From positions 41,066 to 105,065 of the IMG/VR virus record IMGVR_UViG_3300020122_000155: a DNA stretch of 64,000 nucleotides; one strand, given 5' to 3'. Under the pieces are notes generated by a model. It saw nothing but the letters and a program-made list of their open reading frames with translations. It was not told the DNA's origin and did not search any database. How positions within the stretch are numbered: the first letter of the stretch is position 1; every line of letters starts with the position of its first letter. The DNA comes from a virus. Positions 13,936 through 44,314 of the stretch are shown here, one piece after another. Position numbers and translations under genes: made by a program.

Positions 13936-13976
13936 GATTCTTCGCCGACAACGCGGACTACAGGAGGGCCTTAGCT

Positions 13977-23691: not shown

Positions 23692-23963
23692 GACTCGCCC
23701 TGCTCGGCCTCTGGACCTCGGCGGCAATTTACGCTTGGTGGTTAATCTATCTTGAGGATGCTGACTCTGTACCTTCCTGGATTCAGCCAGTGATCGTGAT
23801 GTTAGCCGTGTCGGGAGTCGCAGCGCTCCCCTTGGTTTGGTTCTGTTTTCTTATGGACTCACTGGGAACTTCGCTTGATCCCCGCTCGCCAGCACCGCGT
23901 TCCCGCTCGTCAAGTACTGCGTCTGGAGGAGATAATCCCCTTGCCGCACATCCAGGCCGCTGA
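23688..23963 (+). CDS. Small membrane protein at the end of the rightward operon (91 aa)
   Basis: Two transmembrane helices are evident: MRLALLGLWTSAAIYAWWLI and a second around residues 31-54 (PVIVMLAVSGVAALPLVWFC). The C-terminal 35 residues are Ser/Arg/Pro-rich and lie over the 3' end of the opposing giant gene, so the real end of functional sequence may be earlier. A holin-like or envelope role is possible. No terminator separates it from the opposing operon. Confidence 0.5.
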   Translation: MRLALLGLWTSAAIYAWWLIYLEDADSVPSWIQPVIVMLAVSGVAALPLVWFCFLMDSLGTSLDPRSPAPRSRSSSTASGGDNPLAAHPGR

Positions 23964-26900
23964 GCGAACAAGGACTGCTGGTGCAGGTGATCGTCGTCTG
24001 TGCCCCGTTGGGAGCCGTGAGGATCGCCCGGAACTTCGCCGCCCCGCTCACGCCCGATAACGAGAAGCTGATCGGATAGGTCTTCAGGTTCGCGGGCTGC
24101 ACCGGGCTCAAGCACGGGAAGCTCGCGCAAGTCCTAACCGCCTGATACGCGGGCTGCGTCGAGATTCCATCCATGAGCCCGTAATACTTTGGGCTGGCGA
24201 CGTTACCAGGAACGGTCGCGTAGGACCCCGTGGGCGGATTGTAATCCGGTAATCCTCCTGAGTTCGTCCATGCCGCCCCGAATAGCGCATCCCCGAGAGT
24301 CTTGAAGCCAGTCGTACCCGACAGTCTATACGCCCACGAGACGCCCCCGGCAGCTTCCTGCGCCGTCACACGTTCGCCGTAGGGCAAATTGCCGGAGTTA
24401 CAGGGATACGGATTGGCGGATGGCGGCGAGCAGTTCACAAACCCCGCGCCCTGCCACACCCCCTGAGTCGCCGGGTTGTAGCCCACATTCGCGATCCAGT
24501 TGGCATTGTCCGAAGCGTACCCGGCCAGCAATCCCGACACCGTGTTGCTGCAATTCGTGGGCACCCCCGGCGAGGTACAAGCGGTCGCCAAGGACGCGAT
24601 GGCAAAGCCTTCGGCCTCCAGCCCGCACATAAACGGCTGGCAGCCCCAACCGATATAGGGCACATCCGCGCCGCTGTTGAAGATCGCATATCCCTTGGCT
24701 CCTCCAGTCGTGCCTGAATAGTTCGCCGCGAGGTACAGATTCGAATTCCCGGCCTTGTTGGATGCGAACGTTGCGGTGAACGTGGAGCCGGTTACCCCGG
24801 ATGCTGTGACCAACTCGGTGTTGCTCCCATCCGCGTTCTGGCTGATGAGCGACACGCCGTTGGTGATCCCGGCCATGCTCGCGGGAGTGACTGTGCGAAT
24901 GCCAGCTGTGATCGAAGCTGAAATGGTCGTTGGCGTTCCCGTTCCGAGGATCAGGTGCGTCGCGTCCTTGAACACTGGGATGTAGAACGCGGAATCCCCG
25001 ACAGCATTGTTTGCCGGTCGCGTTCCGGGAGTTGGGAACATCCAAATCGTAGAAGTTGGTCCAAAGTTTCCGAAAGTTGTGCTTGTTCCCGTCACGTTAG
25101 GCGATCCGTTCACCACGCTCACCGAGGAGCCCGAGCCCCAGGAATTGCTGGTCCAGTAGAGAATCGGGAAATATGGGAATGCCCCATCCGCAGTATCTCT
25201 GGAGTTGGTAATGGCGTTATTCGTCACGTCCACCAACGCTTGTCGGCATGTATTCGCGTAGGAGTTCGGATCAAACAAGGCACACTGCGCGACCCGGATC
25301 ATGGCATAACCGAACTCTCTTTGATCGGTGTATAGATCGGCGATCTGAGTCAATCCCGCCTGGGTCAGCTTCGCGATGTCCGTTCCGAACACGTACTCCA
25401 ACCCGGTCCAATAGGAAGGCTGTCCATCGAGCGCGCGAAGAATCACGCCGGAGAGACCCAAAAGCCGCGAGGAGACCTGTCGCCCGGTCCCGTTTATCCC
25501 CGATGGATCGATTGTGGTTGTATACTCATCTCCGAGGTTGATAGCTGGTTGCCGGAACCATCGATCAGCGCGCGCTCTTGCTTGAGTAAGATCCGCCGCA
25601 AGACCGCTCTTAAAAGCCTTGTAATAGTCACCCAAAATGTTATCGTAGTAGTTCCCGTTGTTCTGAAAACTGTTGTAAGTGGGCCATGCTTGATTGTCGA
25701 GAGCGTACTGGACCCCGGACGAGGTTGGGTATCTCCATGCGAGTCCATTGGCCTGCTCGATCACCATGGAAGTATCCGAGTTGCAGCCCAGGATATTCAG
25801 TTGGTTCCGAATCGTCGGAAATGCCGTATTGGGCGCAGGCGTTGCGCTCCACGGCATGATGGTCATGTTGTTCTGAGCGATGTTCGCCGTCGTATAAGTT
25901 CCGATCACAAACCCAAGGAGCGCGTAGGCATTGTTCGCCACGGTTTGAATGGCGAGCGATCCGCTACCTCCGGTCGTAGCAGTCCTGATCTGAACCAATA
26001 AGCCGTTATAGGTTGGTGCGGCAATCCCAGTGCCGCCAATTGCGGTTTGAATATCTGCCCCTATCTGTGCCGGATTACGTGATCCGGTCGTTAGATTTAC
26101 AGTGATCGGAGAGCCACCGTCAAAGACCAATTTGAGAACGTTGTTACTGCCCGTCACGGTGTACGTGTCGGCTGTGTGGATTCCGGCAGATATAGATGCC
26201 ACGGCTCCTGCTTGCGCTGTCGGTTCTGTTGTTCCGCAAGCGCTTGTGAGGAATGTCGTTCCGCTCCCGACAAGGACGTATGAATTTTGAGTTGCCGTAA
26301 CCGTTCCGGCTTGTGCGTAATCAAAAAATGCGATTCCGTTCTGGAAGACCGATCCGCCATTTATCGAGGAAGTCTGAAAGTCCTGTGCCCGAAGACTCTG
26401 CTGGAGTCCGTGGAGCGTGTCGAATAACGGCCAATTAGCAACGGGACTCATCCACTTCTGGAGCGGCCCAAGCATGATGTCCGTGGCGGAGTTTGCGGGC
26501 AACGCCGCGCTGTTAATGGCGATATCGTTGGCATCGGTAGCCACCGTACCCATGTGCTGAGCAAGAACTCCAGTAGTTGGCGTCGCATCCGTAACGCTGA
26601 GTTGGAGGGTATAGTCCCCGGCAGTGAGCCCGTTCACCGTCGCACTTGCGGAGGTCCGCCCGGTTACAATCGGTGGCGCGATTGGATAAGAGAGAAATTG
26701 CCAGAACTGATTGGGTATCGACGAGCTAGCATCCGCCTGAGTGAACGAGGAGGATGAAGATACGGTCTGAGGGTTTCCTGCCCTCCATGTAGTCTGGGAA
26801 AGCGTAATTACCGGAATCGGATTTTGATAAAGCGTGGTGCAATAGCTCGTAGCGGTAGACCCACACGTCCCGGACGGCGTTGATGCGTCCGACATAACCG

Positions 26901-27531
26901 CTGTCCAACCGTTCCCCGAGGCATCAGTAAACGATCCATCGAATTTCCAGTGAACAAACCATGAGCCGGAGTTCAGCGGTCCAACATCTGCCGTTGCGGG
27001 CATCCTGGAATGCGGAGGAATCAGCGTGGTCCCGAAGCGGAAAAAATGGAACCGCTGAGTGGAAGTGTTTCCATTCTGAGCTAAGTAAATTCCGGCACTG
27101 TTCGATCCGGTAAAGCTAGTATATGCCTGTGCTTCAAAAAACTGCTCGACATTGTTTATGTCCCACGCCTCGCAGTAATCGGTCTTCGCCGTGCCAACCG
27201 AACCAGTATCATCGTGCATCAGGCGGACGTAGGCATACCCGTTCACAAAGGATGCTATCGGGATGTCGCACACTCCCGGCCCCACGTCGCGAAGAAACGC
27301 GATGCGAATGTACGCGCCGCTGGAATAGTCTAGTTCTATTCCTATAGCGTTCAATTCCGCAAGCGCACCGCTTCCTGGGCTAGTGATGTCCGATAGTTCA
27401 AACTCGGCGATGATCGCCTGGGAAGTCGTCTGCGCGGTGATGGAGCCGTTTTCCACGCGCACATTGGATAGCTTAATGCCCTGTCCGGCGAAGGCTAAGG
27501 CGGAAGCCAGTAGGCCGAGTATAGTCTTCAT
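23851..27531 (-). CDS. Giant secreted fibre-like protein (1226 aa) with Sec signal
   Basis: The product starts MKTILGLLASALAFAGQG, a standard Sec signal. The mature protein is rich in Ser/Thr/Gly/Ala with a LamG-like segment (WFVHWKFDGSFTDASGNGW), a middle region with helical, aromatic sequences (YYDNILGDYYKAFKSGLAAD, RADRWFRQPAINLGDEYT) that looks like an alpha/alpha-toroid of a carbohydrate-active enzyme, and a C-terminal Ig-like domain (YPISFSLSGVSGAAKFRAIL). It is the last gene of the leftward late operon and starts in an ATGA overlap. Function unknown; secreted or virion-surface carbohydrate binding is the leading idea. Confidence 0.7.
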   Translation of the reverse strand: MKTILGLLASALAFAGQGIKLSNVRVENGSITAQTTSQAIIAEFELSDITSPGSGALAELNAIGIELDYSSGAYIRIAFLRDVGPGVCDIPIASFVNGYAYVRLMHDDTGSVGTAKTDYCEAWDINNVEQFFEAQAYTSFTGSNSAGIYLAQNGNTSTQRFHFFRFGTTLIPPHSRMPATADVGPLNSGSWFVHWKFDGSFTDASGNGWTAVMSDASTPSGTCGSTATSYCTTLYQNPIPVITLSQTTWRAGNPQTVSSSSSFTQADASSSIPNQFWQFLSYPIAPPIVTGRTSASATVNGLTAGDYTLQLSVTDATPTTGVLAQHMGTVATDANDIAINSAALPANSATDIMLGPLQKWMSPVANWPLFDTLHGLQQSLRAQDFQTSSINGGSVFQNGIAFFDYAQAGTVTATQNSYVLVGSGTTFLTSACGTTEPTAQAGAVASISAGIHTADTYTVTGSNNVLKLVFDGGSPITVNLTTGSRNPAQIGADIQTAIGGTGIAAPTYNGLLVQIRTATTGGSGSLAIQTVANNAYALLGFVIGTYTTANIAQNNMTIMPWSATPAPNTAFPTIRNQLNILGCNSDTSMVIEQANGLAWRYPTSSGVQYALDNQAWPTYNSFQNNGNYYDNILGDYYKAFKSGLAADLTQARARADRWFRQPAINLGDEYTTTIDPSGINGTGRQVSSRLLGLSGVILRALDGQPSYWTGLEYVFGTDIAKLTQAGLTQIADLYTDQREFGYAMIRVAQCALFDPNSYANTCRQALVDVTNNAITNSRDTADGAFPYFPILYWTSNSWGSGSSVSVVNGSPNVTGTSTTFGNFGPTSTIWMFPTPGTRPANNAVGDSAFYIPVFKDATHLILGTGTPTTISASITAGIRTVTPASMAGITNGVSLISQNADGSNTELVTASGVTGSTFTATFASNKAGNSNLYLAANYSGTTGGAKGYAIFNSGADVPYIGWGCQPFMCGLEAEGFAIASLATACTSPGVPTNCSNTVSGLLAGYASDNANWIANVGYNPATQGVWQGAGFVNCSPPSANPYPCNSGNLPYGERVTAQEAAGGVSWAYRLSGTTGFKTLGDALFGAAWTNSGGLPDYNPPTGSYATVPGNVASPKYYGLMDGISTQPAYQAVRTCASFPCLSPVQPANLKTYPISFSLSGVSGAAKFRAILTAPNGAQTTITCTSSPCSLSGLDVRQGDYLLQTQYLTSGNAVLASGDQAKFPVSP

Positions 27532-28643
27532 AGTTGGGTCATCCTAAGATGACTGATGGGATTGTTCCCCGTCGATGAGTTGAAATCAATGCGAAATATC
27601 GTGGTAGCAAAATTGAAAGTTTGTGTCTGGTGCGATAGCGGCCAAAAGTTAACCCCGGCATTCGCAGACCATACCGAGCCCCAAGCATCTGCGAGACTAG
27701 CCGAGCCTATGGTTACTGAAATTGTGAAGAGCGCAGTGGTTGTGTCCTTTAGCGTGATGTTTGGAACTGACGGATTTGCAGGATCTCCAAAGGCTCCATC
27801 GATTTTCCAATATCCAGCGGCGGGTAAATCACAACGCCACGTTGCGGTAGTGCTGGCTGCAAGGTAACTCATACCTTGCAGCCGGTTGTCGCCACTGAGG
27901 TTATTGGCTCGATTTACAGAGGCTACCGATGCTCCGCCCGTTTCCCATCCGCATACCATCGACTGATTATTGGCATTTGTGAATATGTGAGGATAGGCCA
28001 TTGTTCCCAGGGTAGTTTGGTCTGTAGCATAGACCGCAAAGCCCTCTTCTCTAACAGTTCCTCCGGGTCCTCCTCCGAGGGTCGCGCTGGAACGGAAGTC
28101 GAACCCAAAGTCCAACTTTGTTCCACCCACGCTTCCATTGGAAGCCGCCGTGATCCGGCCTTTGGCGTCCACTGTCAGGTTGGTGCTGGTATAACTCCCT
28201 GGAGTAACAGCAGTGTTCGCCAGCGTAATCGCCTGCGATCCACTGCCGGGTCCTGCCGTAGCGTCTCCAGTAAGCTGAGTGATCCCGCTGCCACTCGTCT
28301 GCGGGTTTTGAAGCTGGAATTGAGTGCCATCTGGGATGACGCACATCCATGTACTCGCCTTGATATCATTAGCGACTAGCGCGACCGTTCCATTTTTAGT
28401 GATAGCAGTAGCCGTCAACGTCCCGTTTGGGGTCGTAATGGCCAAAGTTGGAGCCGCTCCCGTATTCGCTGCGCTTGCCTTCCAGCACACTTGCGGTTGG
28501 CCGGATGACAGCGAATAAGGCTGCGTGATGGTTACAGTCTGCGCTTGAGCGGTGCCGCCACCTGTGCCATAGAAAGAAATTAGGCCGGGAGTGGATTGTG
28601 CTAACGCCAACGACGAAGCGATCAAAAAGAGTATGGTCTTCAT
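27528..28643 (-). CDS. Secreted tail-fibre-like protein (371 aa) with Sec signal
   Basis: The signal is MKTILFLIASSLALAQ, nearly the same as that of the next protein. The mature part contains GITQLTGDATAGPGSGSQAI and NLTVDAKGRITAASNG, phrases typical of phage tail-fibre stalk repeats, followed by a C-terminal beta-rich domain ending NPISHLRMTQL. The combination of a fibre stalk and an export signal is unusual. ATGA overlap to the following gene. Confidence 0.75.
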   Translation of the reverse strand: MKTILFLIASSLALAQSTPGLISFYGTGGGTAQAQTVTITQPYSLSSGQPQVCWKASAANTGAAPTLAITTPNGTLTATAITKNGTVALVANDIKASTWMCVIPDGTQFQLQNPQTSGSGITQLTGDATAGPGSGSQAITLANTAVTPGSYTSTNLTVDAKGRITAASNGSVGGTKLDFGFDFRSSATLGGGPGGTVREEGFAVYATDQTTLGTMAYPHIFTNANNQSMVCGWETGGASVASVNRANNLSGDNRLQGMSYLAASTTATWRCDLPAAGYWKIDGAFGDPANPSVPNITLKDTTTALFTISVTIGSASLADAWGSVWSANAGVNFWPLSHQTQTFNFATTIFRIDFNSSTGNNPISHLRMTQL

Positions 28644-28646
28644 AAA

Positions 28647-31600
28647 TTATTTAGCGACGGCAGAACCTAGAACCTTTCCGCTTCCAAGGCGCACGCTTCC
28701 GCCGCCTGTCACCGAGCCAGATAATGGTGTAAACGCCGAACCATTCCATGCCCTTGCATAGAGTTGCTGAGTGCTGGAACCCCAGTCCTGTTCGTTAAAT
28801 GCAACCACTGGCTGAGAATTGTAGTAGGCAAGAGAAGCCCGCTGAACGGACCCGTAAAGAGCATCAGCGTTAAATGCAGTCCCCAGAAGCGCCCAGGAGG
28901 AAGTGAATTTCGCCACATATCCCTGAGCCCGTTCTTCTGAGGGCTCCCCGCTTACATAAGCATGAGGAGGTTGATATTCCACCCAAGCAACATATAGATT
29001 CGTACCGTCGCTTGCAATAGACGGATGAAAGGCCCAACCATTGCCGTTCGGGTCCTGGTTAATCGATCCGCTCCCGACCGTCGCCCACGCCCCGGCTGAT
29101 ACTTTTCGCACCCAAAGTTGGGCATTCCCGGCGAGCGTTCGTTCGGTAAAGGCTACATATGGCGTCCCGGAGACATAGATCAGCGACGGGTCGATGGCGT
29201 AGTTGTTTGCGTTTACATTTGCGATTCCTCCGCCCTGCACTGTCCATGCCGAACTGATATAGCAGGAAAGATGAACCTTGGCTTGCCCTGAGGTGATCAG
29301 ATCGCCATTATCGACCGTATAGTCGGCCCAAGTCACGCATGGGTGTGTTCCGTCGCTTGCAATTGCGTAATTCGGAGAGGCGGCGGTTCCGGTTGCATTT
29401 AGCGCTCCGCTGCCGACAAGCGTCCAGGCGCTTCCACTCCAGGAGTATACAAAAATTTGGTTGTGCGACGGCGGGGAGTTAGCTGTCGGAGTTTCAAACG
29501 TGGCCGCATAGGCCGTTCCACCAACGTCGGTAAATTGAATCCCTCCAGCACCTCCTGTCGAACTGGATTCGATCGCGAATGGTGCCGCGCAGTTCACACT
29601 AAAAGACGTACCGCTCGCTTGTGTCGCGAAGAGTAATCGGTTATTGCCCTGCGTTCCGTAGGTTCCCAGCCACCACACACCGCCAGCATAGGCAATTGTG
29701 GAATTATGCCACAGTCCGCCAGTCCCGCAGGAGCCGCTGAATGTAACCGTCCATGTTGTCCATGAAGATCCATTCCAAGAGTCAACATATGATGTGGGAA
29801 ACGGGGTTTGCGCGCCGACGTTAAATGGATCAGATAATTCGGAGCGGGATATATTGAGCAAGCTGTTGCCCGTCGAGGTCATAGGCTTCTGAGCCCAACC
29901 GTTCGTTGTAGTGGTTCGCGATCCCGTCTGCACTTCACTAACGAACGGATTGACGGCACTGACGATATTTCCTCCAACCGCTCCAGGAGAAGCGCCGAGG
30001 GTGATGCCAGGAGACGGTCCGGTGCCTCCGTAACGATAGAAATAGGTTGCTGCAAAATTCTGGCTGGCGGTAAAGGACGGCGAGTCGGCGTAGAACGCAC
30101 ACGACCCCGTGTTGCATGGAGGACTCACCAGGATGTGTATGTTGTGAACCGGATCATACGTCATGCCTTCCCACGGTGCGGCTGTATATACACTGGGCGT
30201 TGTCCCGCTGGGACTAAGCTGCGTCCACGCTGGAGAGGCGAGATTCATTGCCCAAAGATCCGTTACTATGCCGGTGCCACTGGATTCTCCGCAACTGCTT
30301 GCCTGACCTGCGCAGGCCCCACCGAATAAAAGCAGCACGTTATTGGTCGTGTCAATATCAATAGCTGCCCAACCGCGCCCGCTTGGAGGCGTGCCTGTTG
30401 GTTGAAGTTGTGTCCACGTCCAAGTGCTTGCCGAGTAGCACAGCTTGTATAACCCGTTTAAAAAATTCCCAGCGCCGGTAGTTCCGCCAAACAGATATCC
30501 ACATCCGTCGCCGGAATTGTAAGCGGTGGCCGTTGAGAATAGCAATCCAGGATCGGCATCGCAAGCACCGCCCCCAGCTTTGGTGCAGGCTGGAGATTGA
30601 GAAGTCCATGTATTTGACGTGATATTCCAGTTCCACACGCCACGACCGCCAGTCATCATCGTATAGGCTCCGTAACTGGGAATGAATTGAGACGATGGTT
30701 CAGCCGGGCGATCCGGGGATACGGTCGCTCCACTGGTCGAAAATGTTTGCTTCTCCAGACCTATTTGTGATCCGAGATCGTAAAGCCAAGTGCGGTAAAT
30801 CCCCTCAAATCCACTTGACCCGGAACCACAACACCAGCCCTCATGTGTATGGTTTGCGGTGTCGTAAGTTAACCAGAATCCGTCCTGGTGTCCGCTCTCC
30901 GGGAAGTGCTCATCGTGGTATGGCTCTGTACGTGCCATAAGCATCCAGTTGTTTAGTTCGTAATCATAGGCGAACACCGCATTGTTTGCTTCGCTATTCG
31001 CATCGTGATAGTTGCCCCAAAAGATGAGCTTGCTTAGATCTGGATTCCATGTTTGCTTGGTCCAGCCAGGATTTCCGATGGGGACGCCATGGGTTTGCAT
31101 CGTGTACCAAGTATTATTGGCGAGAGACGCCCACGCCTTGACCATGAAGTTCGCTGCGGTAAGATTTGTCTGTCCTCCGCAAGCGCTCGATGCTACGGTG
31201 ATGGTCTGCGTGGTGCCGCTGGGGGCCGGGAGGCCGGTTACTTCCGTAGCCGCCCACCAGTTCTGCTGTGTCGCGGGGTTTCCAATCCAGGTATTAGTGC
31301 CGGGGTCGAACCCGATGTTCTCGACCAAGGAAAGAGCGCTGGATGTAGCGCATTTCAGACGGTAAGCCGTGGCACCAGGGGGGACGTTAATGTTCACACT
31401 ATAGGTCGTGGTCCCGGTAACGCTTGTGATTTTGGCCAGCACGAGAGACTGTCCCGATGTGGCTGGTGCTGCCGTCCCGACGTTCGCGATCACATTTAGC
31501 ACCTGTGCGAACTGGTAATTGTTGAAGTCGTCAACGTTTCCGTCCGCCAAGACCCGTTGATAGGCCGTGAGAAACTTGTCCTTCCAGATCGAGACGGACC

Positions 31601-34316: not shown

Positions 34317-35092
34317 GGCTTGTAAGCGGCGATGACGCCATAGACAGAGGTATTACCTGTCGTCGTTCCGGCAGCGGTAAATGTTCCAGAACTGGTAGCA
34401 ATCTGGTGCCAAGTCACCATCTCATGAGCGCCACCATCAGTGACGGTATTATCTAGACCAAAAGGAGCTGTGACAGTGTAGGTATTAGAGAAGGCAAGCT
34501 GGTGTGAGAATCCAAGAACTAGATCATTAGAAACAGCAGCGGAATTGCTAGGGCCAATTGACCAGCCGAACGGACTACTACCGCTGACGGCCACGCCGAA
34601 GTCAAGTGCGGCCCCATCTGGTGCACAGTGATTGGTGCCGCAGGTATATTCGCCAACTTCAGCAACAGTATAGGTGGTGCCACCCGTAAACGTTATCGTG
34701 ATCGCATGGCTTGTTCCACCGCTGATATTGGAAGCTCGATAAATTGCTCCTGTTCCCTGTGCTCCTGCATTGCTGGCAGGGCCATAATCCGTTACCCAGG
34801 TATTACAGGGAGAAGCACACCCAGTATGCGTATCCGCAATCGACCAAGGGAGTTTCGCGCTTGGATCTGACGAGTTGTAGTAATCCACGATCTTAATGAT
34901 GATCGTATTCCCGGAGGTCGTAGAACTGCCGAATGTCAAAGTGATTGACGCTGCGGGGAAGGTGTTGCCAGTCTGAAGTTGCACCTGAGTAATGGACCCG
35001 CCGCCTCCACCCAATACATTCCCGCCCGGACCGGGAATGCGAACCTGTGCAAATACAGATAAACAGATGATCAATCCTAGGATAATCCTCAT
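34313..35092 (-). CDS. Secreted beta-sandwich protein (259 aa) with Sec signal
   Basis: The signal is MRIILGLIICLSVFAQ. The mature part has a Gly-rich linker (GPGGNVLGGGG) and one Ig-like domain with SITLTFGSSTTSGNTIIIKI, then SIADTHTGC and TYTVAEVGEYTC. This fold type is common in secreted Acidobacteriota and phage proteins. ATGA overlap to the next gene. Function unknown. Confidence 0.65.
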   Translation of the reverse strand: MRIILGLIICLSVFAQVRIPGPGGNVLGGGGGSITQVQLQTGNTFPAASITLTFGSSTTSGNTIIIKIVDYYNSSDPSAKLPWSIADTHTGCASPCNTWVTDYGPASNAGAQGTGAIYRASNISGGTSHAITITFTGGTTYTVAEVGEYTCGTNHCAPDGAALDFGVAVSGSSPFGWSIGPSNSAAVSNDLVLGFSHQLAFSNTYTVTAPFGLDNTVTDGGAHEMVTWHQIATSSGTFTAAGTTTGNTSVYGVIAAYKP

Positions 35093-35094
35093 AG

Positions 35095-38000
35095 CTAGTT
35101 CACCGTGTAGACGACATGAACAACGAAAAACTTTGCCGTCCCGCCTGGAGTTCCGCTTACGAGTTCAAGATAGTCGCCTGCGTTAAGACCTGTATTTTGT
35201 AGTGTAGCGGAGCAGGTCGTCGCACCATTTATGCCTGTTGTTCCACCCGTATTGGAGCAGGCAATCCCGCCACTAGCCGCCGTTGCAAGGGCCGAGGAGA
35301 CGATGTTTACTATCGTACCGGCACGGTTTCTACCCACAATCACGTTGGGCGTCCCCGCGTCTGCGTTCACGTCCATCTCAACGATGGTCGCTGCGGCGGG
35401 GATAAAGCATACACGGGACTGGGGTCCCATCTGGCCGGAAGTGATTGCACTTCCCGATGTGTCATTGATTGGGATGTCGCAAACCCGGCGCGTATTGACC
35501 ACGGCCATTTTTGAAGAGGAGACGGCATTGGCCGCAATCGTTGTCGCAACGCTTCCGCTAGTCGTAACATCTCCTGTGAGATTTCCAACAGCTCCGGTTT
35601 GGGTGAAGACGCTCGTAACTGGCGCGCCTGGAATCCACGCCGCCACATTGGTACTCGTGATCGTCGGAGCGCCCGTCGTTGTACTCCATGTCGCTACCAC
35701 ATCGAGTGCCTGCGTTGCCGTCGTGTCGATGGTCCAGGTTGAACTGGTCTGCATCGCCGCTTCTCCCGGCGTCAGTGTGGAACCAGTCCCTTCAAAGATA
35801 CAGTTAGCAATCTGTGTTCCGCTTGCACCAGAGGTGCGTGTGGTTACCGCACAGCGAAGCCTCCAAACTCCGTTGGTGACAGAAGCGATCTGAACCACTG
35901 CGCCCGTCGTAATTCGCGGCGTTCCCCCGATGCTGAGGGCAATCGTCAGACTGGCCGGGGTCGCAGGAGTCGAGGAGAAGCCCTGCGCCACAAATTCAAG
36001 CACCTGCCCCGCCGTGAAGGTGTTCGCGGGAACCGTGGTCGAACCTGTTACGGTGCCGATCAGCGTGGTAGGGCTTGTGGCCGTTACGGTCGTGGAGTTC
36101 GTAGTCGAAAACAGGGTTGCGCCTGCCGTACCGCTTCCGCCCGATCCGCAAGCTGCTCCCGCTGTATCCAACTTGTAGTTTGACCCGCTCACAGTCCATT
36201 TCGCGCAATCGCCATTCCCAGGGGTGACTGTGAACTGGGGGATTTTTGCATCCGCGCTCGATTGTGCCGCGTGGAGCATGTTATTGGTCGAATCGTAACC
36301 GATCCCGCCGTTAACGGCAGTTGTCAATCCAGCACCTACTGGAATCTTGAGAGCGCTCGCTGCCGTGGACGCGCTCATGTCTAGAGTCATCGCAGCCGCG
36401 CCCGAGTTCGTGGTGTCTTTACGAACTACGTTCGATGCTAAGAATCCAGCATCAGCGGGAACGTTGGACGCCCCAAACGAGACGAGATCACCGTTTGTCC
36501 CGGAGAATGTTCCGCCGTTTAGCTTAGTGCAAGTCAACGTGAAGGAACTGCTTGCGCAATCACCACTGAGTTCTGCGGGGGTGGATTGCGTCTCTACGTT
36601 CGAGGAATTGGTAACACGGAAGAAACCCGTGCCTGCAACACCAGCTAGATCTAGCCTATAGGCCGTAACTGAGGTGGGGGCCTCGATAACAATGCTGTTC
36701 GCTCCCGGAGTGCTCGCAGTGCCCTGGTTGAATTGGGTTCCGCCAGCTACGCCAGAACCAGAACCCGTGGTCAAGGTTCCCGGAGTGGAGATGTTCCCGC
36801 TGCCGTCCATTGTGGCCGTCGCGGAGGGGGTCTGGATGGTCGTAGTTCCCCCGCCCGTCACAAGGGCCGTGCTGGTGAGTGAACCTGCGCCGACTACGGT
36901 GACAGTGCCAGAGCCAGTCGGAGTCGCGCACGCACCGTCTCCACGTAGGAAAGTGCTACTGGAGCAGGTCCCCGACCACAGCCCATAAACGTCTGACGCC
37001 GCCGCGTCCGAGATCGCTCCAGTGGTAGTAGTGTTCTTGACGATGCCGGTTCCGAGGGTGGCCCAATTTTGATTCGAACTCCCCAAAGTGAGCGTGGCGG
37101 TATTTGCAACTCCGGTGCCCCCTTGTCCGGGGGTGACAGCGGCATTCGTCGTCAATACCGTTGTCGATGCGTTGGGAAACGTATACGTCTTGGCCGAGGT
37201 AGCAGGTCCAGACACGGTGAAGAACGCATTTGCCGTTCCCCCATTGGCTGTCGGTAGGATGCCGGTCACCTTGGTCGTCAGATCAATAGTGGACGCGGCG
37301 ATGTCGGCGTTCACTACCGAACCAAAAGCGGGATTACCGGCTGCATTCCCATGCAGCAATGTAGTCGTAGTCCCCTGATTGGCGAATTGCGCTCCCGCAA
37401 GGGTGAGGGCAGTCCACGCAGCAGTTGTGGCGTTGCTCAGGAGCACGGTGTTGGCTGCGCCGATACCGAGCCGAGCGAGCGCCGGAGTTGCGTTGACCAG
37501 GAGGATGTCTCCTTGGGTAGTGAGAGGCGTATTAGCCAATGCCAGAGCGCCTGTGATTGTCGCTGCCGTGCCGGATGTGTTACCCGTCACATTGCCAGTC
37601 AGGTTTCCGCTGAAAGTGCCCGTGGTCGTTCCGGGGAGCGTGGGGCTGGTAGGAATTGATAGGGTGATTGCCCCGGTAGAAGCCGATGCTGTAATTTGAT
37701 TCGCTGTGCCAGTGATAGTAGTTGGAAGTGCCGTACAGGTTTCCGAGTTACCGGAAGCATCCACACCTAGGGGGAATTGACCAGCCGAACAATTCGTTCC
37801 ATTCGCCGCCAAAGCCGTCGCTGTCGTCGCCGCGATAGTACCGCTGCCCGACACTGCGAGGGATGCACCTGTACCTACGACCATTGCGGCTGTTGTATTA
37901 GTGGAGCCTGTAATGGCTGAGAAAGCATTTGATCCGCCGCCCGCACACGCAGATCCAGTGGCTAGACAGATTGCTCCCGAACCTGATACAGCCGTTCCTA

Positions 38001-39165
38001 GCGCCGTTGCTACGCCCGTCCCTAGCCCCGAGACTCCAGTGCTGATTGGCAATCCAGTGCCATTTGCCAGAGTAATCGTAGGTGCCGTTCCGAAGACCAA
38101 GGCCCCGGTTCCTGTTTCGTCCGTAACTGCCGCTGCTAGATTTGCGCTTGTCGGTGTCGCAAGGAAGGTACCTATCCCGGTTCCCATCCCTGATATGCCA
38201 CTAACCGGCACAGCCGTAGCCGTGATTGCTCCGCTGCCAGTAGCGGCAAGGGACGCCCCGGTTCCGACCACCATTGCCGCCGTGGTGTTCGTAGAACTGG
38301 TAAGCGCGGAAAACGCACCCCCCGAATACTGGGGGATATTCAGCGTGTTGGTGGCCTGGGTCCAGGTAGCTGCCCCACTAGAACCCGTTGTCGTCAGCGT
38401 AATTGGCAATTTTGTAAGATTAGAAGCATCTCCGCTTACTGGAGTTCCGAGCGCCGGAGCGATGAGGGTAGGCCCATTTGCAAAGACGAGTGCCCCCGTA
38501 CCAGTCTCACCGGTTACGCAGGCGGCAAGATTTGCGCTCGATGGGGTTATCAGCCACGTCACGCAGCCAGTTCCTATCCCGGACACTCCGGTACTGATCG
38601 GAAGCCCAGTAAGGAGTGCCGCATCTACGGCTGGTAGTTGCGCCGATCCATTTAGCTGAACCAGATTGTTCGCGCCTGTTCCGACCGTATACGAGGTTCC
38701 CCACGCGGCCCCGGTTGAATTGGCGATGCCAGAGCCAGGATAAACCGTGGGACCCGCTGGGCCGGTAGCTCCGGCTGGGCCAGTTGCGCCCGCCCCACCG
38801 TTGCTATTCACGTTGCAGTAGGCGTTCGAAACGCTGGATGCGAGCGTGACAGTCAGAGTCGCGATTGGTGTTGCCGCCGTGTAGGTATAGGAAGACACGC
38901 CCACCGATGTTTTGGTAGCGCCCGTCCCTGTGTAGCAGAGTATCTGCGCCGATGTGATCGTGGAAGCGGTAAGATTCAGCGTCGATAATGCTGGAGTCGC
39001 TGTTGCATCCACGACTACCGATGTGCCTGGACCGGCAACTGTGGCAGAAACCACATTGAGCGCCCCGACGCCGACTCCGCCGCCAGACGGAGGCGTAATT
39101 GTCTGCGCCCTTAGCGCGAAGGAAAAGGGGATAATCAATAGTAAGCGTTTTAGCATAATTGTCAT
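35095..39165 (-). CDS. Giant repeat tail-fibre-like protein (1356 aa) with Sec signal
   Basis: The signal is MLKRLLLIIPFSFALRAQ (start ATG 39165 or 39156). The mature part opens with a collagen-like stretch (GGAGATGPAGATGPAGPT), then several copies of a phage fibre repeat (ETGTGALVFANGPTL, SGLGTGVATALGTAVSGSG, TNTTAAMVVGTGASLA) and a C-terminal beta-rich head. The repeats are typical of side tail fibres in phages and prophages. Codon-level repeats inside the gene could promote recombination. The ATG overlaps the preceding stop as ATGA. Confidence 0.75.
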   Translation of the reverse strand: MTIMLKRLLLIIPFSFALRAQTITPPSGGGVGVGALNVVSATVAGPGTSVVVDATATPALSTLNLTASTITSAQILCYTGTGATKTSVGVSSYTYTAATPIATLTVTLASSVSNAYCNVNSNGGAGATGPAGATGPAGPTVYPGSGIANSTGAAWGTSYTVGTGANNLVQLNGSAQLPAVDAALLTGLPISTGVSGIGTGCVTWLITPSSANLAACVTGETGTGALVFANGPTLIAPALGTPVSGDASNLTKLPITLTTTGSSGAATWTQATNTLNIPQYSGGAFSALTSSTNTTAAMVVGTGASLAATGSGAITATAVPVSGISGMGTGIGTFLATPTSANLAAAVTDETGTGALVFGTAPTITLANGTGLPISTGVSGLGTGVATALGTAVSGSGAICLATGSACAGGGSNAFSAITGSTNTTAAMVVGTGASLAVSGSGTIAATTATALAANGTNCSAGQFPLGVDASGNSETCTALPTTITGTANQITASASTGAITLSIPTSPTLPGTTTGTFSGNLTGNVTGNTSGTAATITGALALANTPLTTQGDILLVNATPALARLGIGAANTVLLSNATTAAWTALTLAGAQFANQGTTTTLLHGNAAGNPAFGSVVNADIAASTIDLTTKVTGILPTANGGTANAFFTVSGPATSAKTYTFPNASTTVLTTNAAVTPGQGGTGVANTATLTLGSSNQNWATLGTGIVKNTTTTGAISDAAASDVYGLWSGTCSSSTFLRGDGACATPTGSGTVTVVGAGSLTSTALVTGGGTTTIQTPSATATMDGSGNISTPGTLTTGSGSGVAGGTQFNQGTASTPGANSIVIEAPTSVTAYRLDLAGVAGTGFFRVTNSSNVETQSTPAELSGDCASSSFTLTCTKLNGGTFSGTNGDLVSFGASNVPADAGFLASNVVRKDTTNSGAAAMTLDMSASTAASALKIPVGAGLTTAVNGGIGYDSTNNMLHAAQSSADAKIPQFTVTPGNGDCAKWTVSGSNYKLDTAGAACGSGGSGTAGATLFSTTNSTTVTATSPTTLIGTVTGSTTVPANTFTAGQVLEFVAQGFSSTPATPASLTIALSIGGTPRITTGAVVQIASVTNGVWRLRCAVTTRTSGASGTQIANCIFEGTGSTLTPGEAAMQTSSTWTIDTTATQALDVVATWSTTTGAPTITSTNVAAWIPGAPVTSVFTQTGAVGNLTGDVTTSGSVATTIAANAVSSSKMAVVNTRRVCDIPINDTSGSAITSGQMGPQSRVCFIPAAATIVEMDVNADAGTPNVIVGRNRAGTIVNIVSSALATAASGGIACSNTGGTTGINGATTCSATLQNTGLNAGDYLELVSGTPGGTAKFFVVHVVYTVN

Positions 39166-40712
39166 CGGGTTACACTCTTGCCACGAATTGTCACCTTCCC
39201 TCTAAGTTGTAGGTTTGCAGATGGAGGTAACGTCCACCCCGCGCCCCCATTCCAAAGCGTATCGCGATCAGCCGACGTAGCAGCAACGCTGGCAATCCCG
39301 TTTTCGTCGATAATACACAGGCATTGTTGCGCAGCGCCAACGCCATTCCCGCTGTGTTTGTTGGAACCTACCCAAAAAGGCAACGTAGAGGCGGCTGGGG
39401 TCAAGCCACTTAATACATGAGAACAAGATGCCGCTCCATGATCCAGATCGAGATGCAGAGTTTGGGCTGGCTGATCGAACCACACTATAACGAGATGGAA
39501 GCCTGTCGTATCAGTGAAAGGCACCGAGCAGTCTTGAAAACTGCCCGCATTGTTACCCATCAGGAAAAATAGATTACCTCCGGCGAGTTGCACCAGCCAA
39601 TCTATATTGGTATTGTTCTGATCGTAGAACCCCTCTATTGTCTGAGTGGGGCTCGTGTTCTGACTCTTTAACCAGAACCACGCAGTCTTAGAGTTGTTGC
39701 CAAACGTAAGATCTGAGGAATTGGGAGCCTGCACGCTCGAAACCGGCTGATTGTCCCAGGCTGCTACCCCATTATTGGCATATGGTCCCGGAGCCGCGAC
39801 GAACTGCGCCCCGTTCGCGATTTTAGCCGCGACCGCCCCCGGTTGCACATTTCGCGCGAAAGTAAAGCTAGTCCCATTGTTCACGGATGCGCTCATGATG
39901 GAGGTCGTCGCGTTGAACTGAGAGGCGATAAAGTACCACGTCCCCGTGCCGGGGGCCGTTCCAGCACCAATAGGCAATACGCCGTTTGCGTATAGCCCAT
40001 TGTCATTCCCGAGATCAATATTGAAGTTGTCGCTTGTCCCTTGGTAGTACAGAATTTCGCCCGTTCGAGGAGTGCCGGAAAGAGTAATCTGACCCCAGAT
40101 GATCGATTGCCCCCCGGATGGCTTCGTGTGCAAGTTGACCCAGCATCCGACGCTAAACGTGAAGTTCCCGCTCTGTAAATCAGCCGTGGGCGGATTGGCT
40201 TCAAGAAATGCGCCGGGTGTTAGCTGAGTGCCATTGCCGACCCCGAGCGGCCCAGTTACCTGCGTCGTAGTGCCGGATCGCGTGAGTGTGTTTCCCCGGC
40301 CCGTTGCATCGGCATACGTTGCAGAGTTGCTGGATTCGTTAAGCAGAAAATAAGCTACGGCATCCTGCAAACTGGTAGTGGTAGAGAATGGCCACTTTTC
40401 ACCCCCGGCGAGCGCTGCGAGTTCGGTTGGTGTGAACGCCCGATTCCACTTGCCACAATTGGCCAAGCTACCGTCGAGGTTTTGGGAGACGCCGCCCGAG
40501 TTGGCTCCAAGCCGGAAGGGAAGAGTGGAAGCAACCGCCCGCTGATCTGGATTCACCGTCAGCGTATGCCCGCGTCCCGTAGAGTCGGCATACGTATTCA
40601 GGACAGCTAGGCTTGCCGGAGCGGATTCATCATACTTCCAATAGGCGGTGATATTCGATGTAATTTGTGCAAACATCGGCACAGCCAATAGGAAGGTTAT
40701 TAGACGTTTCAT
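39162..40712 (-). CDS. Secreted LamG-like protein (516 aa) with Sec signal
   Basis: The signal is MKRLITFLLAVPMFAQ. The mature part has two concanavalin-like openings, YWKYDESAPASLAVLNTYAD and YFLLNESSNSATYADATGRG, each followed by the (S/T)GRG.TL motif, and a further lamin-G-like region with TWYFIASQFN and FHLVIVWFDQPAQTLHLDLD. LamG domains bind sugars or proteins at cell surfaces. It overlaps the 1356-aa gene as ATGA. Confidence 0.75.
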   Translation of the reverse strand: MKRLITFLLAVPMFAQITSNITAYWKYDESAPASLAVLNTYADSTGRGHTLTVNPDQRAVASTLPFRLGANSGGVSQNLDGSLANCGKWNRAFTPTELAALAGGEKWPFSTTTSLQDAVAYFLLNESSNSATYADATGRGNTLTRSGTTTQVTGPLGVGNGTQLTPGAFLEANPPTADLQSGNFTFSVGCWVNLHTKPSGGQSIIWGQITLSGTPRTGEILYYQGTSDNFNIDLGNDNGLYANGVLPIGAGTAPGTGTWYFIASQFNATTSIMSASVNNGTSFTFARNVQPGAVAAKIANGAQFVAAPGPYANNGVAAWDNQPVSSVQAPNSSDLTFGNNSKTAWFWLKSQNTSPTQTIEGFYDQNNTNIDWLVQLAGGNLFFLMGNNAGSFQDCSVPFTDTTGFHLVIVWFDQPAQTLHLDLDHGAASCSHVLSGLTPAASTLPFWVGSNKHSGNGVGAAQQCLCIIDENGIASVAATSADRDTLWNGGAGWTLPPSANLQLRGKVTIRGKSVTR

Positions 40713-40716
40713 TTGT

Positions 40717-42252
40717 TTATGGAGTTGAAGTTACTAGCAACATCCGATTTGAGACCGTTTCGGTGCCCGATGCGAACAAGCAATGTTGCACCTTGATGGT
40801 ATGGCTACCAGAGGCTAGGCTAGCCGCATACGTAGACTGACAAGCGGTAATGAAGTTGGCGTTGTTTTGGTCGCACTTTGTCAAAGTAGCCGAAACCAGG
40901 GAGCCATCCACGTTGAACTGGTTTTGCACTTCCGCGCCATTCTGATTTACCGAGAAAGAATAAAGGAATTGCGCCGCGATATTGGTAGTAGCTGAAAGCG
41001 TAAAGGTAACGCTATCTGGTGTGGTCAGGTCCACAAATGCCGTGCCACATAATGACGTGGTGGTCTGAGCCGTGGACACCCGTGAGACGCCGACCGGACC
41101 AAAGCCGCCGCCGCCGCCGCCCGTACCGGGATTGTTCACACTTGCAAAATAGTTTGTACCATCTGAAACCACGTAGGAATCCGAGGGAGCCGTAGCCGAC
41201 GCCGCGTTTAGGGTCAGGCTTGCGGTTCCCCCATTGATATTCTGCCCGCTTCGCGCGATGGTGACGACGCCGCTACCGTAATTAACAACTTTAATGCACT
41301 GCCCTGAAGCCGGTTGAGAACCGGACGCCACCAACGTAACCGTGAACGTCCCCGATGCTATGGTGATCGTTTTGCAACCAACAAAATCCGCCGCGAGTAC
41401 CTGATAAGTGCCCGTTTGGGCATTAGGGGCAAATAATACTACGGCACCGGTAGCCGTGTTCACGCTAGTAACAGGAGTTGCACCGCCAGAGACGGGCGTA
41501 CATGTAAGCACATGAGAAACGTAGGTTAGGGCATGAGCGCCATCACCCGCACATGCTGGAACCGCCTGCGTACCCGGAACCGCCGTTCCCGCCGTGAAGT
41601 TGCCAAAGATATTATCCGCCGAAATACTGGCCAAGCCACCAGCGGGCAACCCAGTGCCCAATGACAAATCAATCGTCGGAGCCGTGGCCCTCACCACATT
41701 TCCGGTACCCGTAAATCCCACTTGTGTAAGCGCCACGGTATTCCCCGTGGCTGTGCCCAATACGAATCCAGTAGCCGCCACGGATGGCCCTACCCACTGA
41801 AACGAAGTAGCAATGGAAGCATTCGCATAGATCGACCAAGCGTTTGCTGGGAACGTCCCCGGACCGGTGCCCTGAACCATATCTATTGCACCAGCCGCGC
41901 TACTTCCGACACCGCTACTAAGCGAACTAGGGCACGCGAATGCACCAGCCGTAAAAGTGCATCCCGTAAAGAAATTGGTCGTCGCCACACTCGAAGAGGC
42001 GTCACCGGGAGAAGGCGTAGGGGCCTTCAGCGTGGTCAACCCGGAAAGATCGATCAAGTTGAGACCTAAATTTACCACTGTATTAGCCACGCTTCCAATG
42101 GTGGTGCTCCCCGTATAGACGGCCAACTGTGTTACCGTTCCTGGCGAAACCGTACCACTCCCGCTTCCGCTCCCGCCAGATGGCGGCGTAATCCTCTGCG
42201 CGCGCAAGGCGACAACAAACACGAGCAGCGGTAAAAGTTTTAAGATTTTCAT
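40717..42252 (-). CDS. Secreted fibre-like protein (511 aa) with Sec signal
   Basis: The signal is MKILKLLPLLVFVVALRAQ, then a Gly/Ser linker (PPSGGSGSGSGTVSPG). The body has fibre-type repeats (GTGLPAGGLASISADNIFGN, ATGAVVLFAPNAQTGTYQVL) and a C-terminal receptor-domain-like region with SGSHTIKVQHCLFASGTETV. It opens like the 1356-aa protein (RAQ..TPPSGG), so the two are probably related. A tail-fibre or secreted decoy role is possible. Confidence 0.7.
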   Translation of the reverse strand: MKILKLLPLLVFVVALRAQRITPPSGGSGSGSGTVSPGTVTQLAVYTGSTTIGSVANTVVNLGLNLIDLSGLTTLKAPTPSPGDASSSVATTNFFTGCTFTAGAFACPSSLSSGVGSSAAGAIDMVQGTGPGTFPANAWSIYANASIATSFQWVGPSVAATGFVLGTATGNTVALTQVGFTGTGNVVRATAPTIDLSLGTGLPAGGLASISADNIFGNFTAGTAVPGTQAVPACAGDGAHALTYVSHVLTCTPVSGGATPVTSVNTATGAVVLFAPNAQTGTYQVLAADFVGCKTITIASGTFTVTLVASGSQPASGQCIKVVNYGSGVVTIARSGQNINGGTASLTLNAASATAPSDSYVVSDGTNYFASVNNPGTGGGGGGFGPVGVSRVSTAQTTTSLCGTAFVDLTTPDSVTFTLSATTNIAAQFLYSFSVNQNGAEVQNQFNVDGSLVSATLTKCDQNNANFITACQSTYAASLASGSHTIKVQHCLFASGTETVSNRMLLVTSTP

Positions 42253-42254
42253 TA

Positions 42255-42731
42255 TTACTTGTCTTCGATCTTGACGGCCTCTGTTTTCGCCACGGCATCC
42301 GTTGGATGCTTGGGGGTCGCCGGTAGAATTTCCGTCGAAGTTGATGCGGATGCGGTCTTGCGCAACACAGCACCAGTTACTAGCGTTAAGAACGCTCCCT
42401 CCAGGTTGTTGATTAGACCATTCACAAACTGCAACTGCGTGGTATCGCCGCCGTGATGAAGGATATGCAGGTTATAGGACAGCAGCAACGCCCACACGAA
42501 GACCACCAAGTATTTGTCGGAACTATCGCGGAACCACATTCCCCAGAGCGGTTCACTCGGCTTGCTCACTATGACCGTGGAACTCGTTGGCGCTGCCGAT
42601 AAGGGCGATGCTGGCAGAGCCGGTGGAGTTTTTCGTCGAAAACAGATGATCCACCACGCCAAAAAAGCGACCAACAAAACCGCCTGTAGCCACTTAGCTA
42701 CCCATTCGTACTCTTTAAAAAAGTTCATCAT
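42255..42731 (-). CDS. Three-helix membrane protein, possible holin (158 aa)
   Basis: Three hydrophobic segments: about residues 13-31 (WLQAVLLVAFLAWWIICF), 74-92 (YLVVFVWALLLSYNLHIL) and 105-122 (GLINNLEGAFLTLVTGAV). The C-terminus is polar and ends in Lys. It lies downstream of the lysin and spanin-like genes, so a holin is a reasonable guess. No known holin family was recognised. Confidence 0.6.
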   Translation of the reverse strand: MMNFFKEYEWVAKWLQAVLLVAFLAWWIICFRRKTPPALPASPLSAAPTSSTVIVSKPSEPLWGMWFRDSSDKYLVVFVWALLLSYNLHILHHGGDTTQLQFVNGLINNLEGAFLTLVTGAVLRKTASASTSTEILPATPKHPTDAVAKTEAVKIEDK

Positions 42732-42775
42732 AGAGTAATTAGCTCGCGCTCTCGGACGGTGCCATTGTTTTCATT

Positions 42776-42804
42776 TTGATTTTGGTCCCTTTCGTGCTTA
42801 CAAT
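42776..42804 (+). promoter_or_regulatory. Promoter for the plus-strand membrane gene
   Basis: TTGATT at 42776-42781 and TACAAT at 42799-42804 with a 17-base spacer. The ATG of the gene is at 42814, so the leader would be about three bases: nearly leaderless, like the promoters at 16531 and 6422. Confidence 0.5.
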
Positions 42805-42813
42805 CCTAGACAG

Positions 42814-43491
42814 ATGCCAACGCTTAGCCTGTCTGTTCTGCCGCTGATTTTTTCGCAGTTGACGATAGCGCTCCTGTTCCGCGCAATTCGTTGGAACATA
42901 CCAATAATCGGCTATCCCGCCTTTTTTGTTATGATTGCGTTCTTGGCGCTGCGATCCGTGGCATGGTTTGTCGCCCCATATTCGATCATCACCGATTTGT
43001 GGACGTGGTTCCCGATGGTGCAACTATTGGTAGTTCAGGAATCACTTTGGCAGACGGCTCCGTGGATTCTGGAGCTTGAAGCGCGCCCCTACATCTATAC
43101 TTTTTGCTGGGCGGTCGGTGCTTTTTTCTCGTTCCTTGTCGCGGACTATGGCTGGCACTGCCGGATCGAAATGGCGATGACCATGGCTCTCGTGGCGAGC
43201 TTGCTCTTGCTGCTTGTCACGGGAGGGCACCACCTTACGAGCGACCGTTTCATCTGGCACCAGACGTTTTTGATCATGTACACCGCCGCGTGCATGATGC
43301 CGAACCTCATTCCAAACTGGTTCGACAGCACGGCGCTAACGCAGATGATCCAGATCGTTAGCCTTGTCGGTTTCCACTGGAATCTCGAAGTTTTTGAACG
43401 ATCCGATCTTCGATGTCCTCTAACTCGTTTCGATGCTCCAGCCCGGAAATCCGTTGTCTTACCTGTTCGAGTTGCGACCCAACACGATTGA
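42814..43491 (+). CDS. Polytopic membrane protein on the opposite strand of the late operon
   Basis: The product (225 aa) has about six hydrophobic stretches (LSVLPLIFSQLTIALLFR, YPAFFVMIAFLALRSVAWFV, MTMALVASLLLLLVTGG and others) and few charged residues. No family was recognised. It is the only plus-strand gene between 24 and 60 kb, has its own promoter and its 3' end overlaps 134 bases of the spanin-like gene on the other strand. This is the pattern of a moron gene, such as a superinfection-exclusion protein; that role is inferred. Confidence 0.65.
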   Translation: MPTLSLSVLPLIFSQLTIALLFRAIRWNIPIIGYPAFFVMIAFLALRSVAWFVAPYSIITDLWTWFPMVQLLVVQESLWQTAPWILELEARPYIYTFCWAVGAFFSFLVADYGWHCRIEMAMTMALVASLLLLLVTGGHHLTSDRFIWHQTFLIMYTAACMMPNLIPNWFDSTALTQMIQIVSLVGFHWNLEVFERSDLRCPLTRFDAPARKSVVLPVRVATQHD

Positions 43492-43693
43492 ATCCAGCTT
43501 TCGTTTCCTGAGAGTGCTTCTCTAGCGACTCCTGAATCTGCCGGAGTCGGCTCTTGCGGTAAAAGTTGAGTTTCAGGAAGCTGAGAATCGCAATGACGGC
43601 AGCGGATATCGCCCCAACTTTGTCAATATCCGGTGTCGTGTGGTTTGGATCTGGTGTCACCATTAGCGCATCAACTTCCTGTGGAGTCATCAA
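43358..43693 (-). CDS. Small membrane protein with coiled coil, spanin- or XhlA-like
   Basis: The product (111 aa) has a transmembrane helix at about residues 26-44 (VGAISAAVIAILSFLKLNFY) followed by a long charged coiled coil (SLEKHSQETKAGFNRVGSQL, QVRQRISGLEHRNELEDIED). The layout is that of an inner-membrane spanin or a phage XhlA-like protein. It sits two genes after the peptidoglycan-active protein, so a lysis role is likely. Confidence 0.6.
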   Translation of the reverse strand: MMTPQEVDALMVTPDPNHTTPDIDKVGAISAAVIAILSFLKLNFYRKSRLRQIQESLEKHSQETKAGFNRVGSQLEQVRQRISGLEHRNELEDIEDRIVQKLRDSSGNRQG

Positions 43694-43700
43694 TCTCCTT

Positions 43701-43871
43701 TCACTTCGCGAACAGCTTGTGACTGAGGACCGTCGCCACCAGCGTCTTGATGTCCGCTGGCGTCAATTGCATATTCGCCTCGTCAAGAAGTGCGAGGATG
43801 CCTTTCGTGATTCTTGCGGATGCTCCGTCTCCGCCTGGACCTCCAGGGGGGATCGGTGGGGGTGATGCCAT
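43701..43871 (-). CDS. Small hypothetical protein (56 aa) in the lysis cassette
   Basis: ATG 43871 overlaps the preceding stop by one base (TAATG) and GGAG lies eight bases upstream. The product has a Pro/Gly-rich start (MASPPPIPPGGPGGDGASAR) and a helical end (GILALLDEANMQLTPADIKT). No family was recognised. It is too short to appear in simple gene lists but fits the operon. Confidence 0.6.
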   Translation of the reverse strand: MASPPPIPPGGPGGDGASARITKGILALLDEANMQLTPADIKTLVATVLSHKLFAK

Positions 43872-44314
43872 TATGTATCTCCTTTTTTGTTGAAATCGGG
43901 CAGTACTGCGACTACGGTCATCTTCGTTTCGCCATCGGCGACGCGGCGACCGATGGCCGCGAGGTCAGCGTAAGACTTGAACGTTATGCAGCCATCCGAA
44001 CTTGCATTCGTGCCATCCGGTGCAACGTGATTTAGATTGCGAAGATGGAGAAAAAATCCGCCTCGTGGCGGCTCGCCCATATTGTTCGCAGGATCGGGTG
44101 TGAGCACGCATCCCAGGCTATGCACGGCGGGTTGCAGCTTGAGCGGACCAATTGTATAGACTCCTTGCGGCAAAGGCCCACGGTCGTGGATGAACTGGGA
44201 CGCCGGATTGTTCATATCCTCGCCGATAAGATTGTTCCCGGCGAGGCATCCAGTCACGAGAATAACCCCATTATCGTCCGTCCAGACGCCGGTTGGCTGT
44301 TCGTAAAACATCAT
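43871..44314 (-). CDS. L,D-transpeptidase/Tlde1-like peptidoglycan enzyme (DUF2778-like)
   Basis: The product (147 aa) shows a YkuD/DUF2778 pattern: PLPQGVYTIGPLKLQP, GFFLHLRNLNHVAPDG and the catalytic-type S-S-D-G-C-I (NASSDGCITF) near residue 110. The Cys with the upstream His would cut or exchange peptide crosslinks of the cell wall; phage members probably act as lysins. There is no signal peptide, so a holin or signal-less export route would be needed. It overlaps the zinc-finger-like gene by ATGA. Confidence 0.75.
   Translation of the reverse strand: MMFYEQPTGVWTDDNGVILVTGCLAGNNLIGEDMNNPASQFIHDRGPLPQGVYTIGPLKLQPAVHSLGCVLTPDPANNMGEPPRGGFFLHLRNLNHVAPDGTNASSDGCITFKSYADLAAIGRRVADGETKMTVVAVLPDFNKKGDT

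Follow-up and report, generated by a model that had tools for sequence, protein, structure and literature searches.

Predicted Sec signal peptides and paired cysteines on fibre-like and tailspike proteins of a soil tailed phage and its relatives

The stretch of DNA analysed here (the window, 64,000 nucleotides) comprises bases 41066-105065 of the 105,065-bp IMG/VR-type virus record IMGVR_UViG_3300020122_000155, from a soil tailed phage. Seven consecutive late genes on its minus strand (23851..42252) encode proteins, several of them fibre-like, that each begin with a predicted Sec signal peptide (SP). Such SPs recur in related phages, and paired cysteines accompany them. Signal peptides on fibre proteins are a real finding, more general than was first noted in an earlier, sequence-only reading of the window. 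Export with disulfide bonds is, on the evidence of these sequences, very probable. We consider it somewhat probable that a fuller account also holds, in which the proteins are exported, disulfide-bonded, released at lysis and most likely outer virion parts that dock late. Our confidence is lower that any given one of the window's own seven proteins docks on virions.

Seven consecutive late proteins begin with predicted signal peptides

SPs were called by a rule that considers n-region charge, an uncharged 8-residue hydrophobic core and the -3/-1 rule. All seven genes of the cluster were called at their annotated starts, compared with 7 of 144 other open reading frames (ORFs) on the contig (Fisher p=1e-8), of which several are apparently false. 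When the N-termini of the seven proteins were shuffled, only 190 of 2100 (9%) passed the rule; the result therefore exceeds what composition alone would give. Predicted mature N-termini (slash, cleavage site) were G/QGIKLS or A/GQ, A/QSTPGL, A/ATISQQ, A/QVRIPG, A/QTITPP, A/QITSNI and A/QRITPP. The core virion proteins of this phage have no SP. The sequence-only reading had described seven consecutive ORFs with clean Sec signals, and had stated that failure of prediction tools to call them would count against it. The ORFs are present, on the minus strand, and every signal was called, mostly with cleavage between A and Q.

The genes, named here by their lower coordinate, adjoin one another along the minus strand from 40717 down to 23851, mostly with overlaps of a few bases. 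The first (40717..42252, SP 42199-42252) encodes a fibre-like protein of 511 residues, whose C-terminal domain has four cysteines and shows weak homology to the C-terminal part of an SP-free fibre (L132) that lacks matching cysteines. Next is a protein of 516 residues (39162..40712, SP 40668-40712), for which a LamG domain had been proposed that Pfam did not detect. The 1356-residue fibre-repeat protein (35095..39165, SP 39106-39165) combines GTGALVF repeats with a module, A1, bearing the cysteine pair GTCSSSTFLRGDGAC. Its repeat modules are common to PfAn1 and other known fibre proteins, and its C-terminal domain is 80-86% identical to SP proteins of two other contigs (L005, L006). A protein of 259 residues (34313..35092, SP 35048-35092) has the mature N-terminus QVRIPGPGG, similar to QSRIPGPGG in L005; a motif QxxIPxPG is seen at mature N-termini. 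The largest product, of 1889 residues (28647..34316, SP 34272-34316), contains a PcRGLX-like beta-sandwich (rhamnogalacturonan exolyase family) and a Kelch region, both by Pfam. The fibre-like protein of 371 residues (27528..28643, SP 28599-28643) has the NLTVDAKGRITAASNG motif and a module with the cysteine pair VCW...WMC, and its modules are common to phrog_38058 and cyanophage fibres; in its NTGA-type module, present also in L017, cysteines and SP follow a similar trend in a few cases. The last protein, of 1226 residues (23851..27531, SP about 27484-27531), has a weak PKD-like match and a possible helical enzyme domain in a low-confidence model. Single-sequence AlphaFold models of 34313 (predicted local distance difference test, pLDDT, 39) and of most of 23851 (pLDDT 33) were not used in fold searches. 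The fibre repeats that had been noticed in several of the seven are correctly described.

Domain searches found no peptidoglycan-degrading domain in the seven proteins, and no ORF of the window contig was among the SP-bearing matches in a scan for the tailspike head-binding domain. None of the seven has a lipobox cysteine at +1, where the residue is Q or A, and no C-terminal outer-membrane anchor or lipobox was seen in the sequences read.

Cysteine pairs track the signal peptide

In an oxidising compartment cysteines should pair, and we therefore compared cysteines between SP-bearing and SP-free forms of the same modules. Scans for FLRGDG(T/A)(W/C) gave at least 120 loci for the Trp form and 36 loci for the Cys form, and counts were dereplicated. 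The Cys form was accompanied by an upstream partner cysteine and an SP in 22 of 24 cases, the two exceptions being an SP missed by the rule (L191) and a wrong-frame match (L204). The Trp form, in contrast, had an SP in 11 of 87 among the matches listed (p=4e-13). For GKL(Y/C)TY, the Cys form had an SP in 6 of 7 cases by rule and 7 of 7 by eye (L368 being the seventh), as against 0 of 106 for the Tyr form among the matches listed. This module is part of the tailspike head-binding domain, in which two cysteines were present in 9 of 10 SP versions and in 1 of 118 versions that were SP-free by rule, namely L368, which has an SP by eye; the two sets of counts overlap in sequences and represent one module.

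The gene that immediately follows the coat gene encodes a protein whose three SP forms have a pair of cysteines around PW(x)N; its two SP-free homologues lack the pair. The SP forms lie in P22-like relatives (L376:18294-19169, L384:2755-3576 and L382:15460-16482), the SP-free forms at L232:554-1234 and L380:18402-19091.

Even cysteine numbers were found in 51 of 62 and 29 of 29 mature SP-bearing fibre-like proteins (combined 80/91, p=2e-14), whereas SP-free fibre-like proteins were at chance (28/55, 25/53 and 123/288). From 23851 to 40717, the window's seven mature chains have 18, 4, 31, 4, 20, 6 and 10 cysteines, an even number in six of the seven. As the sequences are related to each other, the p-values are optimistic. 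The cysteine contrast between SP and SP-free forms is nevertheless, at the level of sequence, large and replicated. Because exported versions gain paired cysteines, the signal peptides appear to be functional.

Tailspikes of related phages carry the signal peptide before the head-binding domain

The GKL(Y/C)TY module was identified as a tailspike head-binding domain by a profile match to PDB 7eeq (E=1.8e-15), and it also matches tail spike chains 9vyg/9vyh. In the tailspikes of cultured or complete genomes the domain begins near residue 7, with no SP (8/8). In the soil forms, by contrast, an SP directly precedes this virion-docking domain, at tailspike loci. N-terminal head-binding domains with an SP were present in relatives L232, L370-L375, L192, L041 and L042, and each SP-tailspike record has exactly one head-binding domain, the one with the SP (8/8).

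Recurrence in other phages

The combination of signal and fibre repeats was sought in relatives, as the sequence-only reading had suggested, and fibre or tailspike proteins with SPs, often clustered, were found to recur on over 30 distinct IMG/VR phage contigs. A homology search found relatives of 35095 on 16 IMG/VR contigs. Wherever its N-terminus was visible, the matching ORF had an SP-like start (in L018 and L019 by eye only), and these SP relatives were commonly flanked by two to five SP neighbours. Further SP-bearing contigs came from a module-based scan. A natural control was provided by weak module matches (L056, L058-L062 and L064) that have ordinary SP-free fibre N-termini, and the shared repeats are also carried without an SP by the cultured or complete phages PfAn1 (L022) and Manatee Spring podovirus (L021).

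In one probably complete contig (G663, 123-bp end overlap), the gene for an SP tailspike lies between adaptor-like and hub-like genes, and an SP cluster follows the ejection genes. In a P22-like podovirus (G666; P22 coat E=1.8e-14, head closure E=2e-75) an SP was present on every fibre-like protein and on none of coat, portal, terminase and head closure; one ejection protein was also flagged by the rule, probably falsely. All fibre-like proteins of G666 have an SP, so for this contig, and only this one, we rejected the proposal that an SP phage always retains one SP-free fibre. A few loci fit a "split fibre", in which a short SP-free anchor ORF accompanies an SP shaft gene, and this reading was not extended to the others. 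The short ORFs at L208:2142-2597 and L218:5167-5613 lack an SP, have an N-terminus resembling a tail-fibre anchor and extend over the start of the SP fibre gene.

Genome context and other putatively exported proteins

The terminase large subunit is encoded at contig 12698-15076 (phrog_38 match, E=1e-101). Late genes on the minus strand comprise adaptor-/hub-like genes, the tailspike, probable ejection proteins, a likely lysis region and then the seven-gene cluster; several of these roles were assigned from gene order. On that basis the SP-free product of 58298..60484 (minus strand, 728 residues) is likely a head-closure/tail-hub (gp10-like) protein. It had no family match, and neither it nor the 1889-residue product of 28647 had relatives in viral_contigs or the phage collection. 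The tailspike at 55364..58015 (minus strand) is conventional, with a weak pectate-lyase-like match, and serves as a control in the same operon; it lacks an SP, as the sequence-only reading had noted. No PDB relatives were found for the 23851 and 55364 proteins. Two large proteins free of cysteines and SPs (1263 and 691 residues; 45680..51543, minus strand) are, from their position and composition, probably ejection or internal virion proteins. Directly upstream of the SP cluster is the likely lysis region (42255..44314, minus strand), with a membrane protein (42255-42731) and a putative lysis enzyme (43871-44314).

Four further exported proteins had been proposed. An SP is indeed present on the small protein of 102 residues at 54728..55036 (minus strand). 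Its neighbour at 55033..55377 (minus strand) has one only when translation begins at an ATG within the ORF, at 55377, that overlaps the stop codon of the tailspike gene. The candidate at 23004 is plausible, though it is a tiny ORF of 43 codons on the plus strand. The protein at 1-466 was called as exported; it runs off the window and has 202 residues in the full contig (window 1-484, contig 40941-41549, minus strand). This 202-residue protein sits outside the late operon, and its C-terminus, a hydrophobic stretch followed by basic residues, is reminiscent of sorted surface proteins. An additional SP protein lies beyond the window, just downstream of the terminase gene (L002; contig 11164-12348, minus strand; 394 residues, 10 cysteines), and ends in a fibre-type domain also found in the SP-free window gene 61228.

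Other features of the contig include a tRNA gene with a CTA anticodon (window 9145-9218, plus strand), called as tRNA-Pyl by ARAGORN and possibly an amber suppressor; despite this tRNA, TAG remains the stop codon of 14 called genes. Probable HNH-type homing endonucleases are encoded at window 3096-3698 (minus strand) and 60562-61182 (plus strand) and at contig 2641-3588 and 24802-25392, and include two paralogous pairs. A transposase-like gene, IS1595-like by eye, lies inside the phage contig (22781-23734, minus strand).

A model of late docking and its alternatives

We propose that the seven late proteins, derived from fibres or tailspikes, would be sent through the host Sec pathway, that their signal peptides would be removed, and that the mature chains would fold with disulfide bonds in the periplasm. 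That they are stored there until lysis frees the pool is suggested by two things: the sequences read showed no outer-membrane signals, and the genes are late ones lying close to the lysis region. Core particles would be built from SP-free proteins in the cytoplasm, and the exported proteins would, to judge by the relatives, most likely serve as outer virion parts (tailspikes, fibres and head decorations) that dock on the finished particles during or after lysis. SP forms retain the docking domain and are encoded at virion loci, which favours docking over free action. Some members, such as the PcRGLX/Kelch protein 28647, may act as free polysaccharide-degrading enzymes, and free action of this kind is a serious rival to docking. 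The wider proposal that a large group of soil tailed phages makes its outermost parts (tailspikes, fibres and a coat-adjacent protein) outside the cytoplasm, by way of Sec, periplasmic disulfides and post-lysis docking, perhaps with fibres from neighbouring cells, is tentative, and we rate its chances at a little under even.

Several points weigh against the proposed export and docking. The SPs were called by a rule of our own making, and in some supporting cases by eye. The cysteine count is odd in 28647 and in 11 of the 62 SP proteins of one set. The window's seven have no recognised head-binding domain and their phage has its own SP-free tailspike, and docking of these seven is therefore extrapolated; attachment to virions after lysis, one of several options listed in the sequence-only reading, fits best among them with that same qualification. 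The G666 contig is not closed, and an SP-free fibre could be missing from it. Lastly, the retained head-binding domain of the relatives could be a relic used in trimerisation.

The proteins might instead be exported and never enter the virion, being freed at lysis, or secreted, as soluble binding proteins and polysaccharide-degrading enzymes that clear exopolysaccharide and keep progeny from sticking to debris. The PcRGLX-like and Kelch regions of 28647 would suit such a role, as would the SP-bearing beta-helix/pectate-lyase proteins of relatives and the place of the seven beside likely lysis genes, with no recognised head-binding domain of their own. We regard this as unlikely, given that the relatives have the SP in front of an intact head-binding domain, at loci for tailspikes, and that one contig (G666) has no SP-free fibre. 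A secreted or surface coat that masks receptors and remains on the infected cell to block superinfection or rival phages, as the sequence-only reading had inferred, is unsupported here and improbable. It would account for the SPs, the fibre-type binding modules and the several different proteins per genome, and exported phage morons such as Lom and Bor provide a parallel. However, the translations showed neither a lipobox nor a C-terminal membrane anchor, in diderms a Sec signal by itself takes a protein no further than the periplasm, and the late-operon position and the head-binding domains of relatives point to the virion.

Tailed-phage virion proteins are normally made in the cytoplasm, and the hydrophobic N-terminal stretches could accordingly be uncleaved virion-anchoring or assembly peptides and not export signals. 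The canonical -3/-1 and A/Q sites in unrelated sequences, and the even cysteine counts and cysteine pairs that occur only alongside these stretches, leave this highly improbable. That the genes are captured host secreted proteins, or mis-assembled host DNA, is hardly credible. Three cellular contigs (L024-L026; Bacteroidota, Spartobacteria) do encode SP proteins with a distant A1 module, and one contig of an Acidobacteriaceae metagenome-assembled genome (MAG) carries the A1 module. Yet the module occurs in only 1 of 299 genomes of that MAG's class, for which reason Acidobacteriaceae are unproven as host, and none of 396 genomes from its phylum has the FLRGDGAC pattern. In addition, modules are shared with cultured phage fibres and the genes lie inside structural operons.

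Comparison with known systems

Tailed-phage virions are understood to assemble in the reducing cytoplasm, and we know of no tailed phage in which exported fibres or tailspikes are added to the virion after lysis. If late docking is correct, the part of the virion that decides host range would have a second assembly route, one that uses Sec export and selected disulfides. Such a route would account for the giant exported proteins of phages in soil viromes and supply disulfide-stabilised tailspikes. Virions could also take up fibres from neighbouring infected cells, so that the host range of a particle would be partly uncoupled from its genome. For annotation, an SP on a viral fibre gene should not automatically be treated as an error or a host gene.

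Podoviral tailspikes (7eeq, 9vyg/9vyh; Xanthomonas phage PBR31, Shewanella phage X14, Rhodoferax phage P26218) share their head-binding domain family with the relatives described here. In both, the genes lie beside those for ejection, adaptor and head-closure proteins, and beta-helix enzyme domains follow the head-binding domain. Unlike the SP forms of the relatives, podoviral tailspikes start the domain at about residue 7, with no SP and no cysteine pair; the window's seven differ from them in having no head-binding domain. Repeat-bearing tail fibres, such as that of Pseudomonas phage PfAn1, share the modules GTGALVF, FLRGDGTW and NLTVDAKGRITAASNG, but have no SP and have Trp in place of the cysteine pair in the FLRGDG motif. 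All seven proteins of the window depart from such SP-free fibre N-termini.

Exported phage morons include Lom, Bor and superinfection-exclusion lipoproteins. Like the window's seven they are phage-encoded exported proteins near tail genes; they are small outer-membrane proteins or lipoproteins, unlike the multi-kilobase fibre clusters seen here. A search of open-access papers found Sec-exported endolysins and an antiholin, and no SP-bearing tail fibres. The endolysins are fOg44 Lys44, SAR endolysins and Ms6 LysA, and the antiholin is RI of T4 (PMC6116005; works cited in PMC13274417). Like the window's seven as proposed here, these phage proteins pass through the host Sec pathway at a late stage of infection; they are lysis enzymes and regulators, unlike the fibre and tailspike proteins considered here.

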